Of a stretch of DNA of 64,000 nt, positions 23,752 to 50,811 are shown piece by piece. Origin of the DNA: Rubripirellula lacrimiformis. GTDB taxonomy: Bacteria > Planctomycetota > Planctomycetia > Pirellulales > Pirellulaceae. The position numbers and the translations under genes are program-made. Positions within the stretch are counted from its first letter, which is position 1, and every line of letters starts with the position of its first letter. The stretch lies in contig NZ_CP036525.1 of the NCBI RefSeq assembly GCF_007741535.1, positions 2,418,001-2,482,000 on the forward strand, written 5' to 3'. The notes under the pieces were generated by a model. The model was not told the DNA's origin. It did no database searches and saw only the letters and a list, made by a program, of their open reading frames with translations.

Positions 23752-24714
23752 TTAGCTTTTTTTTTTGCCGCTGCTGCTCAACTTGAATTCGTCAGCAAGT
23801 TGCTTGGCGTCAAAATTCTTGGGCGGATCGTAGTCTTGGTTCTCCAGCAACACGTCGACCGTTACCGGTTGTCCCATCGATGAACCGGACTTCGCGATGT
23901 CCTGGCCCGCGGTCCAGCGAATCGCATTGATGATCAAACGCCGAACATCTTCGTGCCCCCAGTTCCAATGGTAGTGCCCACCGGTGAATCCAAAGGCTCG
24001 GCCGCCTTCGGGACGATCGTAGGTCCAGGCCACGGTTTGCTTTTCGCCAGCGGCAACACTTTTGCGAACCGATGGATTGCCGCTGTGCGGTCCGTCAGAG
24101 CGACGCATGGTTTCGGGGGGCGCTACGGCGGCCAAGATCGGCGTCACCGCGTCGTTGTCTTTGAACCGAATGTGAAAGTACCATTCGTCGTTGGTCGAGA
24201 AAGGTTTGACACCGCGAGTGACCGGATGTTCGGGAAGCGTCTTGAAGTCACCGACCCAGTGTGGGTTGACGCTGTAGTTGACCTCGAAATGGCCGCCCAA
24301 CAGATCCAAGAACGCGTCCCCGGTCGGTCCGGGTACCGTTTCGACAGCGTAGTGCAGGCACACCAAACCGCAGCCGTCGTTCATTCGTTTGGCGAGTGTT
24401 TCAAGATGCGGGATCGCCAGATGACGACCGCCACCGTCGCCGTAGATCACGATCGTGTCGGCGTTTTCGATCAACGTTTCGTCTTCCGGCCAACCGCGGA
24501 CCAGCGTGATGTTGGCGTCGTCCGTGCTGGCCCGAAGCGATTCTTCCAACACCTTCAGCCCCGCGTAGTGTTCGTGAGCACCGTAGCCGTGCGATGGGTT
24601 GCCGGCCAACAACAGAATCTGAGTCGGATCAGCGGCGTCGGAAACATTGGCAACCAAAGTCGCAACCGCACAGCAGAATGCGAGCGACAGGGGGCGAAAG
24701 GAGCTGGGGAGCAT
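23752..24714 (-). CDS. ThuA-like domain protein with signal peptide
   Basis: A 320-residue protein. The ATG at 24714 starts a clear signal peptide (FRPLSLAFCCAVATLVANVSDA); a longer frame begins at 24765. The ThuA/glutamine-amidotransferase-like fold shows ILLLAGNPSHGYGAHEHYAG, VIYGDGGGRHLAIPHL and FTGGHYHWNWGHEDVRR. ThuA-like domains are linked to sugar catabolism and are often fused to PVC-type or PQQ-type dehydrogenases. The frame ends SSSGKKKS-stop inside a run of ten A. A -1 shift there bypasses the stop and runs into the downstream dehydrogenase frame, giving a protein of about 1480 residues. As written it is either the N-terminal half of a frameshifted gene or a separate secreted protein. 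Confidence 0.88.
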   Translation of the reverse strand: MLPSSFRPLSLAFCCAVATLVANVSDAADPTQILLLAGNPSHGYGAHEHYAGLKVLEESLRASTDDANITLVRGWPEDETLIENADTIVIYGDGGGRHLAIPHLETLAKRMNDGCGLVCLHYAVETVPGPTGDAFLDLLGGHFEVNYSVNPHWVGDFKTLPEHPVTRGVKPFSTNDEWYFHIRFKDNDAVTPILAAVAPPETMRRSDGPHSGNPSVRKSVAAGEKQTVAWTYDRPEGGRAFGFTGGHYHWNWGHEDVRRLIINAIRWTAGQDIAKSGSSMGQPVTVDVLLENQDYDPPKNFDAKQLADEFKLSSSGKKKS

Positions 24715-24885
24715 GGTGGGGAGTTCTCGCGTCGGGTGGGATTTGACGGTAGTGGCGTCGAACATCCCCTTAGTTTAGCAAGAACCGGCCTCGAAGCGAC
24801 CATCGGGCCACAATTGATCCGGCAGGCATGGCGTGCCAGTCGCTCCAAAGGCGATTCCCCCCCGTTTCGATTGCATAGCCAGTTG

Positions 24886-27403
24886 TCGTTTCACCGCGAG
24901 ACCACCGGCCCACGCGTGTTCGGTCCGGTGCGCGCGGGGCGATGCCCACGCGGTTAAACGACTAGGCCGCGGGCATACCGGAACCTCGCGCAGTGCACCG
25001 TTCACCTTCGTTTAACCGCGTGCCCACCGGGCCGCGCGTTTTGGGTCGGGTGCGCGCGGGGCGTTGCCCACGCGGTTAAACGATTGGGCCGCTGTCATGT
25101 CGGGAACCTCGCGCCGTCCATCGTTCACATTCGTTTAACCGCGTGCCCATCGGGCCGCGCGTTTTAGTCTGGTGCGCGCGGGGCGATGCCCACGCGGTTA
25201 AACGATTGGGCCGCTGGCATGACGGGAACTCGCGCCGTCCATCGTTCACATTCGTTTCACCGCGTGCCCACCGGGCCGCGCGTTTCACGTCTGGTGCGCG
25301 CGGGGCGTTGCCCACGCGGTTAAACGACTAGGCCGCTGGCATACCGGAACCTCGCGCCATCCATCGTTCACCATCGTTTAACCGCGTGCCCATCGGGCCG
25401 CGCGTTTCAGGTCGGGTGCGCGCGGGGCGTTGCCCACGCGGTTAAACGACGGGGTGGCTGGCGTGGCGGGGACTTGTGCAGCGTATGGTTCACGTTCGTT
25501 TCGCGGCGTGGACGTCGGGCCGCGCGTTTTCGGTCGGGTGCGCGCGGGGCGTTGCCCACGCGGTTAAACGACTGGGCCGCTGTCATAACGGAACCTCGCG
25601 CCGTCCATCGTTCACCTTCGTTTAACCGCGTGCCCACCGGGCCGCGCGTTTCAGGTCGGGTGCGCGCGGGGCGTTGCCCACGCGGTTAAACGACTGGGCC
25701 GCTGGCATGCCGGAATCTCGCGCCATCCATCGTTCACCTTCGTTTCACCGCGAGACCACCGGGCCGCGCGTTTCAGGTCGGGTGCGCGCGGGGCGTTGCC
25801 CACGCGGTTAAACGATTGGGCCGCTGGCATACCGGAACCTCGCGCCGTCCATCGTTCACATTCGTTTAACCGCGTGCCCATCGGGCCGCGCGTTTTGGGG
25901 CCGATGCGCGCGGGGCGATGCCCACGCGGTTAAACGATTGGGCCGCTGGCATAACGGCGCGCCGTCCATCGTTCACCTTCGTTTCACCGCGAGACCACCG
26001 GGCCGCGCGTTTCACGTCTGGTGCGCGCGGGGCGTTGCCCACGCGGTTAAACGATTGGGCCGCTGGCATGACGGGAACTCGCGCAGTGCATCGTTCACAT
26101 TCGTTTCACCGCGAGACCACCGGGCCGCGCGTTTTACGTCTGGTGCGCGCGGGGCGATGCCCACGCGGTTAAACGATTGGGCCGCGGGCATGACGGAACC
26201 TCGCGCCGTCCATCGTTCACATTCGTTTAACCGCGTGCCCATCGGGCCGCGCGTTTTCGGTCGGGTGCGCGCGGGGCGTTGCCCACGCGGTTAAACGACT
26301 GGGCCGCTGGCATACCGGGAACTCGCGCCGTCCATCGTTCACCTTCGTTTCACCGCGAGACGACCGGCCCGCGCGTGTTAGGTCGGGTGCGCGCGGGGCG
26401 ATGCCCACGCGGTTAAACGATTGGGCCGCGGGCATACCGGGAACTCGCGCCATCCATCGTTCACCTTCGTTTCACCGCGAGACGACCGGCCCGCGCGTTT
26501 CACGTCCGATGCGCGCGGGGCGTTGCCCACGCGGTTAAACGACTGGGCCGCTGGCATGACGGGAACTCGCGCCGTCCATCGTTCACATTCGTTTAACCGC
26601 GTGCCCACCGGGCCGCGCGTTTTCGGTCCGATGCGCGCGGGGCGTTGCCCACGCGGTTAAACGATTGGGCGGCTGGCATGACGGGAGCTTGTGCAGCGTA
26701 TGGTTCACGTTCGTTTCGCGGCGTGGACGTCGGGCCGCGCGTTTGGTCTGGTGCGCGCGGGGCGTTGCCCACGCGGTTAAACGACTGGGCCGCTGGCATA
26801 ACGGAACCTCGCGCAATGCATCGTTCACATTCGTTTAACCGCGTGCCCATCGGGCCGCGCGTTCGGTCCGGTGCGCGCGGGGCGTTGCCCACGCGGTTAA
26901 ACGACGGGGTGGCTGGCGTGGCGGGGACTTGTGCAGCGTATGGTTCACGTTCGTTTCGCGGCGTGGACGTCGGGCCGCGCGTTTTCGGTCGGGTGCGCGC
27001 GGGGCGATGCCCACGCGGTTAAACGACTGGGCCGCTGGTATGACGGGAACTCGCGCAGTGCACCGTTCACCTTCGTTTAACCGCGTGCCCATCGGGCCGC
27101 GCGTTTCACGTCTGGTGCGCGCGGGGCGTTGCCCACGCGGTTAAACGATTGGGCCGCTGGCGTGGCGGGGACTTGTGCAGCGTATGGTTCACGTTCGTTT
27201 AACCGCGTGGGCATCGCGCCGCGCGTGTCAGTACCGATGCGCGCGGGGCGTTGCCCACGCGGTTAAACGATTGGGCTGCTGGTATGACGGGAACTCACGC
27301 AGTCCATCGTTCACCTTCGTTTCACCGCGAGACGACCGGCCCGCGCGTTTCACGTCCGATGCGCGCGGGGCGTTGCCCACGCGGTTAAACGATTGGGCGG
27401 CGG
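24886..27403. repeat. array 1: about 21 tandem units of a 122-bp dyad repeat
   Basis: The anchor CGGTTAAACG recurs at 24951, 25073, 25195, 25317, 25439, 25561, 25683, 25805, 25927, 26044, 26166 and onward to 27382. Spacing is 122 bp except for one step of 117 and two of 120. Each unit reads arm CGCGGTTAAACGA, about 46 variable bases, the reverse arm TCGTTTAACCGCG, then TGCCCATCGGGCCGCGCG, about 14 variable bases, and CGCGCGGGGCGTTGCCCA. The second pair forms nested GCCC-N3-GGGC and GGGC-N3-GCCC hairpins. 122 is not a multiple of three, so the open frames that cross it are artefacts. It fills the space between the ThuA gene start and the GT4 gene at 27458. Confidence 0.97.
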
Positions 27404-27457
27404 ATTGTACGGCGTGGCTGATGCCGACGCCTTCACTCGGTGAGTCGCCGCGGTGAG

Positions 27458-28753
27458 TTACCGCAGCAGGTTGTGGTAGACATCCGCTGTTCCTGACGCC
27501 ATTGCCAGGTCGGAGAATCGTTCGGCGTGACTTTGAAACGCGTTTTCAGACATCGTCGTCCAGTCGAATTTGCCGGTTACTAGGTCGGCAATCGAGTCGG
27601 CCAAACTGGACGCGTCGCGTGGTTTAGCCAAAAAGCCTTCGACGCCATGGGTGACGGCTTCCGGTGTCCCCTCGACGCGCGTTGCGATCACCGGGACAGC
27701 GGCCGCCATCGCCTCCAGGACCACCATCGGCAATCCTTCGCCGAATAGGCTAGGCAGGATCATCGCATCGAGTTCGACGAGCGCTTCGGGGACATTCGAC
27801 GTGAAGCCAACTTGTTCGACTCGATCGCGAATCTCCAGTGCAGCGATTTGTTTTTGGATGCCGGCTTCGTAGTCCGCCGTTTCAAAGGGGCCAATGACGC
27901 GAAGCACAACGTCGTGTCCGGCATCGCGAAGTTTTGCCAAAGCGTCCAACGCGATTTCCAGTCCTTTGCGAGGACGCATCAGGGCCACCATTCCGATCGT
28001 CCATCGTCCACCAACCACGGGGTACCGTGTGCGCGGTGGTCGAATCGCGGGGACCCCGTTGTGCACGACGGTCACTTTCGAAGGGGCGGCGCCGCGTTCG
28101 ATGCAGTCCTTTCGCAGGCTTTCCGAAACCGTGATCAGGTGCGAACAGCTGCGTAGAGATTGTTTTTCGATCCACGCGTTGACATGGTTGGTGATCATTC
28201 GTGACGAGTCGCGAGCCGCCGGGCTGTGGACGTGGTAGATCCACGGCACGCCAGCCATTCGTGACGCCAACGCCGTGATCATGGCGGTCCGCGGCGTGTG
28301 GGCGTGAAGCAGGTCGTATCGATATTCGCGGATCAAGTCGCGGATGCGGCCGACGGCTCGTAAGTCAAACCGATGAGCCATCGACGCGTCGTGTCCGATG
28401 CCCCAATCAGGCGATTCCTCGTTCAACATCTCGGCAAACTTGCCCGGTTTGACACAAGCGAAGTCGGCGGCGACACCAAATTTTGGCAGGCAGCGTCCCA
28501 GGTGGGACTGGACCCGTTCGGCTCCGGAAAAGTGTTCTCCGTTGACGACATGCAGAACTTTGACGTCGATGACCGGATTACTGGTCGGATTCTGGCTGAG
28601 GGAATTGGCTCGGCTAAATTGCGAACTCTCAGCGGCCGATTGGTCTGCGGTCGGGGCCACGCCCAGCCCAGGGTTCGACGCCAGCGGCATGGTGGCCGCG
28701 GTGCCCGACGCCGATTCGTTGGCTGTGTGTTCAAAATTGGCAGGGGACAGCAT
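27458..28753 (-). CDS. glycosyltransferase family 4
   Basis: A 431-residue protein if translation starts at the ATG at 28753 (MLSPANFEHT); the true start may be further in, just before VIDVKVLHVVNGEHFSGAER, where homology begins. Landmarks are DLLHAHTPRTA, VSESLRKDCIERG, VHNGVP, ALMRPRKGLEIALDAL and the donor-site segment PSLFGEGLPMVVLEAMAAAVP with E-x7-E. It is a GT-B retaining transferase of unknown substrate. It is divergent from leuB and lies directly beside array 1, whose last unit is about 55 bases past its stop codon. It is not linked to the polysaccharide locus at 40-64 kb. Confidence 0.88.
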   Translation of the reverse strand: MLSPANFEHTANESASGTAATMPLASNPGLGVAPTADQSAAESSQFSRANSLSQNPTSNPVIDVKVLHVVNGEHFSGAERVQSHLGRCLPKFGVAADFACVKPGKFAEMLNEESPDWGIGHDASMAHRFDLRAVGRIRDLIREYRYDLLHAHTPRTAMITALASRMAGVPWIYHVHSPAARDSSRMITNHVNAWIEKQSLRSCSHLITVSESLRKDCIERGAAPSKVTVVHNGVPAIRPPRTRYPVVGGRWTIGMVALMRPRKGLEIALDALAKLRDAGHDVVLRVIGPFETADYEAGIQKQIAALEIRDRVEQVGFTSNVPEALVELDAMILPSLFGEGLPMVVLEAMAAAVPVIATRVEGTPEAVTHGVEGFLAKPRDASSLADSIADLVTGKFDWTTMSENAFQSHAERFSDLAMASGTADVYHNLLR

Positions 28754-34448: not shown

Positions 34449-36080
<1,632 letters not shown>

Positions 36081-36122
36081 GCCACCCCGCTTAGTCATCG
36101 ATCGATCAACCATGATCAACGA

Positions 36123-36152
36123 AAAACGGCCGACGCAAGTCGGCCGTTTTTT
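36123..36152 (+). terminator. rho-independent terminator after groEL
   Basis: A perfect 12-bp stem, AAAACGGCCGAC with GTCGGCCGTTTT around a GCAA loop, runs into a T tract. It lies 43 bases past the groEL stop. Confidence 0.95.
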
Positions 36153-36261
36153 ATTTGCCCATCATGAACAAGCAAGGCGGAAATCGGTTCACAAGAACAT
36201 CGCACGAGGCAAGTCGTTGGCAAAGTCGAATGCCCAACAACATTCACCAACCGCCCTAGAT

Positions 36262-37887
36262 CTCGCGCAGGTCATCATTCCCATTCGTTTAACCGCGTGC
36301 CCACCGGGCCGCGCGTCCCATGCCAGATCCGCGCGGGGCGATGCCCAAGCGGCGAAACGACAGGGCCGCTTTCGTAACGGAACCTCGCGCAGTTCATCGT
36401 TCCCATTCGTTTAGCCGCGTGCCCACCGGGCCGCGCGTCCCATGCCAGATCCGCGCGGCGCGTTGCCCACGCGGCGAAGCGACAGGGCCGCTTTCATAAC
36501 GGAGCCTCGCGCAGTTCATCGTTCCCCTTCGTTTAACCGCGTGCCCACCGGGCCGCGCGTCCCATGCCAGATCCGCGCGGCGCGTCGCCCACGCGGCGAA
36601 GCGATAAGGCCGCTGGCATACCGGAACCTCGCGCCGTCCATCGTTCCCCTTCGTTTAACCGCGTGCCCATCGGGCCGCGCGTTTTGGGTCCGATGCGCGC
36701 GGCGCGATGCCCACGCGGCGAAGCGACACGGCCGCTGGCATGACGAGAACCTCGCGCCGTCCATCGTTCACCTTCGTTTCACCGCGTGCCCATCGGGCCG
36801 CGCGTTTTGGGTCTGGTGCGCGCGGGGCGATGCCCACGCGGTTAAACGATTGGGCCGCGGGAATGACGGGAACCTCGCGCAGTTCATCGTTCCCGTTCGT
36901 TTAACCGCGTGCCCATCGGGCCGCGCGTTTTCGGTCTGGTGCGCGCGGGGCGATGCCCACGCGGTTAAACGATTGGGTGGCGGGAATGACGGGAACTCGT
37001 GCAGTTCATCGTTCCCGTTCGTTTAACCGTGTGCCCACCGGGCCGCGCGTTTCATGCCAGGTCCGCGCGGGGCGATGCCCACGCGGCGAAGCGACACGGC
37101 CGCTTTCATACCGGAACCTCGCGCAGTTCCTCGTTCCCATTCGTTTAACCGCGTGCCCACCGGGCCGCGCGTCCCATGCCAGATCCGCGCGGCGCGATGC
37201 CCACGCGGCGAAGCGACACGGCCGCTTTCATACCGGAACCTCGCGCCGTCCATCGTTCACCTTCGTTTAACCGCGTGCCCACCGGGCCGCGCGTTTTGGG
37301 TCTGGTGCGCGCGGGGCGATGCCCACGCGGTTAAACGATAGGGCCGCTTTCATAGCGGAACCTCGCGCAGTTCATCGTTCCCGTTCGTTTAACCGCGTGC
37401 CCATCGGGCCGCGCGTTTCATGCCAGGTGCGCGCGGGGCGTTGCCCGCGCGGTTAAACGACTAGGCGGCTGGTATGACGGAACCTCGCGCCATCCATCGT
37501 TCCCGTTCGTTTAACCGCGTGCCCACCGGGCCGCGCGTCCCATGCCAGATCCGCGCGGGGCGATGCCCACGCGGTTAAACGATAAGGCCGCTGGCATGAC
37601 GGAACCTCGCGCAGTTCCTCGTTCCCGTTCGTTTAACCGTGTGCCCATCGGGCCGCGCGTTTCACGTCGGGTGCGCGCGGGGCGATGCCCACGCGGTTAA
37701 ACGATAGGGCCGCTTTCATAGCGGAACCTCACGCAATGCATCGTTCCCGTTCGTTTAACCGCGTGCCCATCGGGCCGCGCGTTTCATGCCAGGTGCGCGC
37801 GGGGCGATGCCCACGCGGTTAAACGATAGGGCCGCGGGCATGACTGGAACCTCGCGTAATGCATCGATCCCATTCGTTTAACCGCGC
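36262..37887. repeat. array 2: about 13 tandem units of the 122-bp dyad repeat
   Basis: This is the same family and orientation as array 1. Anchors at 36350, 36472, 36594, 36716, 36839, 36962, 37084, 37206, 37328, 37450, 37572, 37694 and 37816 are spaced 122-123 bp. Seven units carry GCGGCGAAGCGA or a close form in place of GCGGTTAAACGA, which breaks pairing with the reverse arm TCGTTTAACCGCG. The 14-base spacer is mostly a CCATGCCAGATC or TCATGCCAGGTG type, seen rarely or never in array 1. It starts about 110 bases after the groEL terminator. Confidence 0.97.
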
Positions 37888-38278
37888 GTATCTGCAGCAG
37901 CGTAGGCCGGACCAAGCGAAGCGCCGCTCCGGCTTGCGTCGCGGCACCTAGTAATCGTGATTGCCGGATCTGCGTCGCTCCGCTCCTTGATCCTGCCTAC
38001 TTCATCGGAATGATTCGACCTTTTGAAATGCCCGTCCGCTAACGCGACCACGGCTCACCGAATCGGCATGTCGCTACGCATTCAGGCTTCCCCCGTTTGG
38101 TCGTGTGTCGGAGCCCGCCGCCATCGCAGTGTTGGATTGCTGTAATGACCGCTGTCGCCACTCTTTGGGTCACCTGCATGCCCATTTATCCGAAGCCGCT
38201 CAAGGATCGCCTGTTTAATAACCAGAGTGCCGCAGACCGCTCGCGAAAATCCTACTTGCGAGTTCTCGCATGGCCCTC
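37888..38278. other. intergenic region between array 2 and the IS element
   Basis: It contains a short inverted repeat, GCCGGA and TCCGGC, at about 37908-37935 within a GTAGGCCGGACCAAGCGAAG stretch that resembles known planctomycete intergenic repeats. The rest shows no gene. Any gene fragment interrupted by the IS is not recognisable. Confidence 0.45.
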
Positions 38279-49852: not shown

Positions 49853-50465
49853 GTGAGCCGTGATCGCGTAAGCGGCCGGGCATCTTCCCCATTGCCCGCG
49901 GCCCGTGGCCTCACGGCCAGCGGCTCACTATGGTGTCGACAGTTTAACCAAATCAGCGGTCCTCCAGCGCCTCACCGCGGACCCTGCAAGGCACTCACCC
50001 CCCCCTTTTTAGGCCGTTTTCGCGTGCCGGAACGCACCAAGAGTTTGTCGACTGAATGAGCCGTGATCGCGTAAGCGGCCGGGCATCCTCCCCATTTCCC
50101 GCGGCCCGTGGCCTCACGGCCAGCGGCTCACTAAGGTGTCGACAGTTTAACCAAATCAGCGGTCCTCCAACGCCTCACCGCAGTCGCTGCGAGACACTCC
50201 TTCCGCCAGTTTTGGGCCGTTTTCGCGTGCCAAAACGCACCAAGAGGTTGTTGATTGAGTGAGCCGTGATCGCGTAAGCGGCCGGGCATCCTCCCCATTT
50301 CCCGCGGCCCGTGGCCTCACGGCCAGCGGCTCACTAAGGTGTCGACAGTTTAACCAAATCAGCGGTCCTCCAGCGCCTCACCGCAGTCGCTGCGAGACAC
50401 TCCTTCCCCCCCTTTTTAAGCCGTTTTCGCGTGCCGGAACTCCCCAAGAGTTTGTTGACTGAATG
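49853..50465. repeat. three tandem 203-bp repeats plus a truncated fourth
   Basis: Units start at 49853, 50056 and 50259 (spacing 203) with GTGAGCCGTGATCGCG or ATGAGCCGTGATCGCG; a partial fourth starts at 50463. Each has GTGAGCCG at the left and CGGCTCAC about 80 bases later as an outer inverted pair, with GGCCCGTGGCCTCACGGCC between. The right half is CAATTTAACC-type unique sequence ending in a C-run and a GCCGTTTTCGCGTGCC block. Units are about 90-95% identical by eye. 67-68 residue open frames within them overlap end to start as ATGA or GTGA; I regard them as by-products. Confidence 0.9.
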
Positions 50466-50811
50466 AGCCGTTAGGCGATAGCCTCGGTTGCGTTCCCCAG
50501 GAACCGGTGCGGTCGGCCTGCTGATTTCGCAACCGGACACGTAAGCGAGGGATTCATTCCGCCACTCGATTCCGCTTCGGGTTGTGATTCCAATCCTACT
50601 TTCTCGACAACGACCAAATCAGCATTCCGCTATCGCCCAAACGGCTCGCATTCAGATTAGAAACTGGATTCGACTGACAAACCGCCAAGAGTTTCGGCCT
50701 CGTCTGCGGGATCATCGAAAGTCTTGGCGACTTGCGCTACGTCTTGGCGACTGCCGTATGCGAAATGCCTCCCCGGTCTGTCGGATGGCTCCGATCAAGT
50801 CGACTGTCCAG
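50466..50811. other. intergenic tail with repeat fragments
   Basis: This region holds TTAGGCGATAGCCTCGGTTG (about 50471), a CGTAAGCGAGGGATTCATTC stretch near 50540 that echoes the area at 46460, and a reversed repeat-A copy at 50710. No gene is supported. Confidence 0.5.
50710..50741 (-). repeat. dispersed repeat A, copy 4 (reverse)
   Basis: The plus strand reads CGAAAGTCTTGGCGACTTGC, the complement of the core used at 11379. A further partial copy, GTCTTGGCGACTGCC, follows at 50741. Confidence 0.75.

Follow-up and report, generated by a model that had tools for sequence, protein, structure and literature searches.

The window, a stretch of 64,000 nucleotides of the Rubripirellula lacrimiformis genome located at G000:C1:2418001-2482000, contains two arrays of palindromic units repeated in tandem between genes. 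The locus raises the question of what these units are and by which process they were multiplied.

Palindromic units of the two arrays

TRF places array 1 at positions 24886-27398 of the window, with a period of 122, 20.7 copies and 85% matches, and array 2 at 36262-37886, with 13.3 copies. The palindromes of array 1 are 74-76 bp long and mostly spaced at 122 bp. The steps between right arms measure 122 in 17 of 20 cases, one is 117, and two are 120. An element-by-element count gives 21 palindromes in array 1 and 13 in array 2. The tandem array of about 21 units of ~122 bp described in the original prediction is thus real, and its total of 34 units over both arrays agrees with the count. It had also stated that every unit pairs its arms. 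The right arm, CGCGGTTAAACGA, is exact in all 21 units of array 1, but the left arm is TCGTTTAACCGCG in only 10 of them, TCGTTTCACCGCG in eight, and TCGTTTCGCGGCG in three, which makes the wording slightly too strong. The proposed contrast between conserved arms and variable spacers is borne out by the mean majority share, which is 0.93-0.97 in the foot-and-stem and hairpin segments but falls to 0.85 in the linker and to 0.80 in the inner loop (computed over 49 units from the two arrays of the window and a third located just upstream). The array units are mosaic, with a slight nearest-neighbour gradient.

The palindrome had been recognized correctly but framed around the 46-bp spacer. The conserved module is TCGTTTAACCGCG-(about 50 nt)-CGCGGTTAAACGA, because its length holds while the linker changes in both length and sequence. 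The statements that the arrays are neither coding nor CRISPR stand, the latter judged on the linkers: CRISPR arrays have unique spacers between identical repeats, whereas here the linkers recur along an array. The genome is a single 8.54-Mb contig, and arrays of the same arms are present in a second genome (G239, 7.48-Mb contig), which makes an assembly artefact unlikely for array 1. The features of the window are listed in Table 1. A hairpin followed by a T run, resembling an intrinsic terminator, was noticed by eye at ~36122-36156, between the gene at 34464-36080 and array 2; array 2 may therefore fall outside the transcript of this gene.

Table 1 Repeat features of the window, in window coordinates.
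Feature	Position	Strand	Basis
Array 1, 21 REPIN elements (74-76 bp), linkers mostly 46 bp	24886..27392	+	TRF and element-by-element reading
Typical single 76-bp REPIN (REP, inner loop, inverted REP)	25618..25693	+	Element reading, alignment, folding
Left REP: foot TCGTTTAAC, then hairpin CGCG-T-GCCC-ACC-GGGC-CGCG	25618..25648	+	Folding, covariation
Right REP, inverted: foot TCGTTTAAC, then hairpin CGCG-T-GGGC-AAC-GCCC-CGCG	25663..25693	-	Folding, covariation
Typical 46-bp linker of array 1	25694..25739	+	Linker comparison between arrays
Array 2, 13 REPIN elements, linker family as in array 1	36285..37826	+	TRF, element reading
Partial linker, left end of array 2	36262..36284	+	TRF, sequence
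Left REP cut short, right end of array 2	37874..37886	+	Sequence

Each element is composed of two inverted REPs, and each REP is a hairpin positioned behind the foot GTTTAAC. The REP begins with the foot, (T)CGTTTAAC, and continues as an imperfect, G+C-rich hairpin. In the left REP, TCGTTTAAC is followed by CGCG-T-GCCC-ANC-GGGC-CGCG, and the right REP carries the sister hairpin GGGC-AAC-GCCC. Like known REPs, both halves are imperfect palindromes of 20-50 nt able to form a hairpin, with a conserved tag, GTTTARC, on the 5' side of the hairpin. The layout of the element is that of a REP doublet (REPIN/BIME).

The hairpins were evaluated in an alignment of 35 elements (alignment A2; one element per array for 31 of 34 candidates, and four extra elements of the window). 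The two local hairpins have standard pairs in 95.4% of the cells, and both sides have changed at 5 of 16 pairs, with none of 500 shuffles as high. A single long hairpin pairs in 95.5% of the cells and contains four covarying pairs, a number reached by 13 of 500 shuffles; it therefore covaries less than the local hairpins. One pair of the right hairpin (columns 58-75) is broken in 15 of the 35 elements, so a mismatch at this position of the right stem is tolerated. When whole elements are folded as DNA, they score better than their own shuffles (z of -3.80, -6.86, and -2.97). Folded alone, the left REP reaches z of -1.76, and the right REP, at -0.45, is not special. The covariation of the hairpins fits folded single-stranded DNA and RNA equally well.

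Copies of the element in the genome and at congeneric sites

A 15-base pattern of foot and stem, with up to two mismatches, has 1,088 half-sites genome-wide, compared to 16 for a reversed control. In 864 kb read, which comprise the window and 40 stretches of 20 kb (27 of them picked for having hits), we counted 318 paired elements. Pairs of inverted REPs are therefore present in many copies and in arrays between genes, as is typical of REPs. The length of the element stays near 76 bp: it is 74-77 bp in most arrays, 78-80 bp in one and 85-86 bp in another, and some elements are shorter. The usual period varies from ~95 to 130 between arrays, and most arrays differ in the length and sequence of the linker. 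The conserved unit is the 76-bp palindrome, not the linker or the period.

Some linkers are shared. One linker family is common to both window arrays and a third array of 18 elements located just upstream of the window (G000:C1:2415585-2417735, L077), and most other arrays have other linker sequences. A linker is shared by the arrays at about 0.88, 0.91, 1.10, and 6.09 Mb, another by those at 2.67 and 5.78 Mb, and, more weakly, one by those at 0.49 and 5.97 Mb. The orientation of the shared linker relative to the palindrome is the same in every listed case. The sharing suggests that arrays did not only grow locally in tandem: multi-unit pieces of REPIN and linker were probably also copied between sites far apart.

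Other repeats were observed in the same DNA. A GTAG-type REP, GTAGGCCGGA, is found near the ends of a number of GTTTARC arrays, usually no more than about 200 bp away (window position 37902, L071, L075, L084, L085, and L086), and has 15 sites in the 864 kb read. Two REP families thus occupy common intergenic sites. A 203-bp tandem repeat of three copies spans positions 49854-50471 of the window; its first ~75 bp form the palindrome GTGAGCCG...CGGCTCAC, which has 95 matches genome-wide, in arrays of other periods (for example near 2.176, 2.810, and 7.459 Mb), and seems to represent another REP-like family that has a tag of its own. Three regions of the contig (G000:C1, about 186678-195701, 1921020-1937660, and 4313612-4338575) resemble each other in their tyrosine-recombinase hits, whose scores are the same or almost the same, which suggests a repeated mobile element with integron-integrase-like genes.

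Among the 30 arrays of at least three elements, 28 have both neighbouring genes called by simple ORF calls. The neighbours are codirectional in 14 cases, convergent in 13, and divergent in one, and 27 of the 28 arrays lie downstream of at least one gene. 

The right-hand neighbour gene of array 1 has a close relative (67-76%) in six congeners (L218-L223), and in five of the six the left-hand neighbour is located beside it in the stretch read. The gap that holds array 1 measures 2,692 bp here, ~75-120 bp in G011 and G001, and at most about 480 bp in G013 and G016; array 1 is present in none of these four gaps. In the fifth congener, G021 (L220, 2736-3332), the gap is occupied by another array, made of six 100-bp units that contain GTAGGCCGGAACAAG and are GTAG-tagged. 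One gap has thus been colonised by two unrelated REP systems in two species.

The transposase gene and its tagged flanks

The genome contains five Y1-type hits, one of which, G000:C1:5222195-5222806, is positioned directly between copies of the element. It matches NF047646, "REP-associated tyrosine transposase" (RAYT), with E of 8.7e-12 and 45 bits, below the model cut-off of 80. Scanned alone against Pfam it reaches 21.6 bits, just under the cut-off of 23, and a single-sequence search of the PDB gave nothing useful. GTTTARC is absent near the gene at three other Y1 loci of the genome. This gene is the sole putative cognate RAYT of the genome. Its closest relative among the 241 genomes of the family, 72% identical and from another genus, lies between arrays of the same arms with a 132-bp period. 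The neighbours of the RAYT locus are less than 60 bp apart in the congeners G011 and G018, where the site is empty; the right-hand neighbour was not found at the seven other congener loci read.

Residues H102, H104, and Y172 are invariant in all 26 aligned relatives, each of which NF047646 matches at E <= 0.01 (alignment A1, 26 of the 30 loci L107-L136; L128, L133, and L134 were left out for stops and L135 as partial). The motif set of the relatives is mostly [EQ]H[VT]H, WA, and YVxxNP. The consensus of the Y motif is YVxENP in alignment A1 and YVExNP in alignment A3, which holds 73 of 80 loci after removal of seven with a stop codon. A model of a relative from a Fuerstiella MAG has a mean pLDDT of 82.7, and its Foldseek matches include the ISDra2 and IS608 transposases of the IS200/IS605 family (best E 1.2e-5). 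The similarity to 2xma_B is modest, with TM-scores of 0.44 by query and 0.64 by target length. The model also matches 4er8, a RAYT bound to a REP hairpin (E 1.7e-4; TM-scores of 0.43 by query and 0.52 by target length). The relatives are thus predicted to share an HUH-like, IS200-like fold with the HxH motif and the catalytic Tyr.

We searched a collection of genomes from 84,980 species with two conserved peptides and kept the best 80 of 255 relatives. By their titles, 79 of the 80 carry planctomycete names, and one is labelled Vicinamibacteraceae. These loci partly overlap L107-L136, and some genomes give two loci, so not all are independent. Comparison of 7-mers in the 500 bp beside the gene with windows at least 1.5 kb away, with no motif preset, shows enrichment of TCGTTTA (36 of 75 gene-side windows and 2 of 73 far windows), GTTTAAC (35 of 75 and 3 of 73), and GTTTAGC (35 of 75 and 3 of 73). 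As in the R. lacrimiformis genome, where REPs flank the RAYT gene on both sides, GTTTARC is found on both sides of the gene at 57 of 71 loci, compared to 0 of 53 far windows; on either side, the counts are 59 of 71 and 5 of 53 (71 of the 80 loci, and 53 for the far control, were selected by flank length).

The foot is frequently followed by a hairpin. We examined 240 distinct foot sites near RAYTs: in 136, a GCC-n3-5-GGC hairpin starts after a gap of exactly five bases, and 88 lack a matching hairpin. The 26 nt behind the foot fold at -4.24 kcal/mol, compared to -1.79 kcal/mol on the other side; their advantage over shuffled versions of themselves is modest (mean z -0.75; z is below -1 for one third). 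At L109 and L122, single REPs rather than doublets are repeated in tandem beside the RAYT, in one orientation and with spacings of 44 and 46 bp. The stems vary by species, and REP distances correlate with RAYT distances in a Mantel test that ignores shared species ancestry (r 0.446, 0 of 2000 permutations, 56 of 73 loci). The REP stems appear to follow the divergence of the transposase.

In 241 genomes of the family, 47 have some RAYT match and 30 a strong one (at least 109 bits). At least 20 sites of the pattern GTTTARC-N5-GCC-N3-5-GGC occur in 21 of the 30 RAYT genomes and in 19 of the 211 others (Fisher p about 1e-12; genomes without a recorded count were taken as < 8). The 21 congeners searched have no RAYT match and at most 14 pattern sites each. 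RAYT presence therefore goes with REP abundance, with exceptions both ways. Nine of the 30 RAYT genomes fall below 20 sites. Conversely, a strong RAYT is missing from 16 genomes that contain 40 sites or more, among them G027, a single contig with 124 sites, and G184 with 336. A deeper profile search of 17 exception genomes found weak Y1 homologues in eight (12 loci), of which none has the foot near the gene and one has it far away. It is possible that the exceptions reflect loss of the RAYT after the spread of the repeats, or repeat-flanked genes missing from draft assemblies.

Origin and significance of the arrays

In one alternative reading, the palindromes are attC-like sites that belong to an integron or to a cassette array lacking an integrase (CALIN), and an integron integrase moves tiny cassettes devoid of genes. 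The ends of attC sites have the consensus RYYYAAC...GTTRRRY, which GTTTAAC...GTTAAAC fits; the palindromes are arrayed in one orientation, as in CALINs; and the genome has integron-integrase genes that score 393.7 and 309.3 bits on TIGR02249 (cut-off 265). However, neither integrase has a paired element in the 20 kb around it (L094, L095); attC sites are expected in a cassette array beside an integrase or between gene cassettes. The linkers repeat and are mostly 20-54 bp, too short for genes. Half-elements occur alone and in one-orientation rows (the flanks of the R. lacrimiformis RAYT; L122), as attC sites should not, and the same foot flanks most RAYT genes. The attC reading was dropped, since it failed on location relative to the integrases and on RAYT linkage, and we regard it as extremely improbable. 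The elements might also be a structured RNA, or act mainly as RNA at gene ends, in transcript stability or termination. The covarying hairpins and the position of 27 of 28 arrays downstream of a gene speak for such a role, and Di Nocera 2013 (PMC3733652) argues that many REPs are transcribed. Against it, Rfam gives no hit that reaches the gathering score, and its two weak hits score far lower, positions 24700-27500 contain no promoter-like site and four terminator-like sites, which is at the chance level (mean 5.9), and array 1 is missing from the same gap in congeners. An RNA role is therefore unlikely.

Selection could instead have kept the arrays because proteins bind them to organise the chromosome, a role proposed for BIME-2 of E. 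coli, which binds DNA gyrase (Nunvar 2010, PMC2817692). The better conservation of foot, stem, and hairpins than of linker and loop agrees with binding, but would be expected equally from recent copying and recognition by a transposase, and the congeners without RAYT have few pattern sites; we find this role very unlikely. It is similarly improbable, if not slightly more so, that general recombination amplified an ordinary satellite or MITE into the arrays and that the RAYT only happened to insert nearby. The mosaic units with their slight gradient, and the genomes that retain REPs without a strong RAYT, would suit a satellite. However, GTTTARC hairpins recur around RAYTs across the phylum with species-specific stems, and both the 12 remoter Y1 homologues and the three other Y1 loci of the genome are without such flanks near the gene.

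We conclude that the arrays are very probably tandemly amplified REPINs with a cognate RAYT: BIME-like, non-autonomous, and probably selfish. The original prediction had denied a match to REP/BIME, a view that finds no support in the two inverted tagged hairpins of each element, the RAYT that they flank, and the recurrence of this association across planctomycetes. Of the three roles that it had offered, the selfish repeat comes closest, whereas the structured RNA found no positive support in the Rfam and promoter searches.

The arrays resemble the REPIN/BIME-2 and RAYT (TnpA-REP) systems of Pseudomonas, Stenotrophomonas, and E. coli in having inverted doublets of tagged hairpins that lie between genes and number in the hundreds, a RAYT with REPs on either side, and doublets that are often in tandem, with flanking DNA taken into the reiteration. 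The preference for codirectional and convergent gaps is likewise that reported for REPs (Di Nocera 2013, PMC3733652). They differ in the tag, which is GTAG there and GTTTARC here, and in the size of the arrays, with up to 21 REPINs here, compared with four in the largest ordered cluster of REPINs reported from P. fluorescens SBW25 (PMC3116915). With the GTAG and CGTC superfamilies of REPs (Di Nocera 2013) the elements share stem-loops that bear a conserved, unpaired tag on one of their ends, but the tag GTTTARC is neither GTAG (GTRG) nor CGTC. The same source records GTAG repeats for the PVC superphylum and, for R. baltica, REP families that coexist; its main text, as distinct from its figures and supplements, is without the strings GTTTAA and TTTAAC (PMC3733652). 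The tag is undescribed in the titles and abstract openings among the full-text matches listed, a set that lies outside subscription journals, figures, and supplements.

TnpA-Y1 class 3, found mainly in Planctomycetes, Acidobacteria, and Proteobacteria (PMC6006769), is the nearest to the RAYT described here. Both have an HUH-Y1 protein in planctomycetes, atypical repeated flanking hairpins, a W[TA] motif, and a Y motif starting with YV. Class 3 has a CnGA foot and YV[VI][AENY]EQ, unlike GTTTARC and YVxxNP here, and the tag and motif set match no subclass in the printed table of that paper. Because its motifs are absent from the published subclass table, the RAYT of the GTTTARC repeats is a probable new branch, an assignment based on motifs. 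GTAG REPs and many tyrosine transposases are already known in Planctomycetes, so REPs in the phylum are not new. The REP-RAYT kind itself is known, and the apparently new features are the GTTTARC tag, the RAYT motif set, and arrays of up to 21 units.

Biochemistry of TnpA-REP from E. coli and two other species shows binding of the single-stranded foot and hairpin, cleavage beside it, and rejoining elsewhere (PMC8266576). By analogy, the RAYT most likely binds the folded single-stranded REP through the foot and hairpin, and its HxH/tyrosine site would nick and join DNA beside the REP, copying REPINs between intergenic sites. The REPIN and part of its flank would then be reiterated in tandem by recombination, slippage, or the transposase itself, and multi-unit pieces of REPIN and linker may also spread between sites. 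We infer the cleavage of these REPs by the RAYT, its driving of their copying, and the mode of tandem growth. The mosaic units with a slight gradient are equally compatible with recombination, with gene conversion, and with a process driven by the transposase. The repeats probably depend on the single RAYT gene.

It is also conceivable, if rather doubtful, that GTTTARC marks a third superfamily of tagged REPs, planctomycete-wide and served by a RAYT subclass of its own. Complete multi-unit arrays would then be mobile and amplified by the transposase, through successive rounds of strand transfer, for instance, or by the copying of single-stranded circles. In that case the transposase, and not general recombination, would determine array length.

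Since the palindromes fit the attC end consensus, integron finders could call false cassette arrays, and annotation may be affected. In the RAYT/REP system a bacterial transposase, usually one gene per repeat type, seems to sustain a population of short sequences. The functional work described in PMC8266576 uses GTAG tags in gammaproteobacteria. With another tag, matched turnover of the hairpins, and arrays of ~20 units, the planctomycete repeats offer a natural test of tag recognition and array growth.
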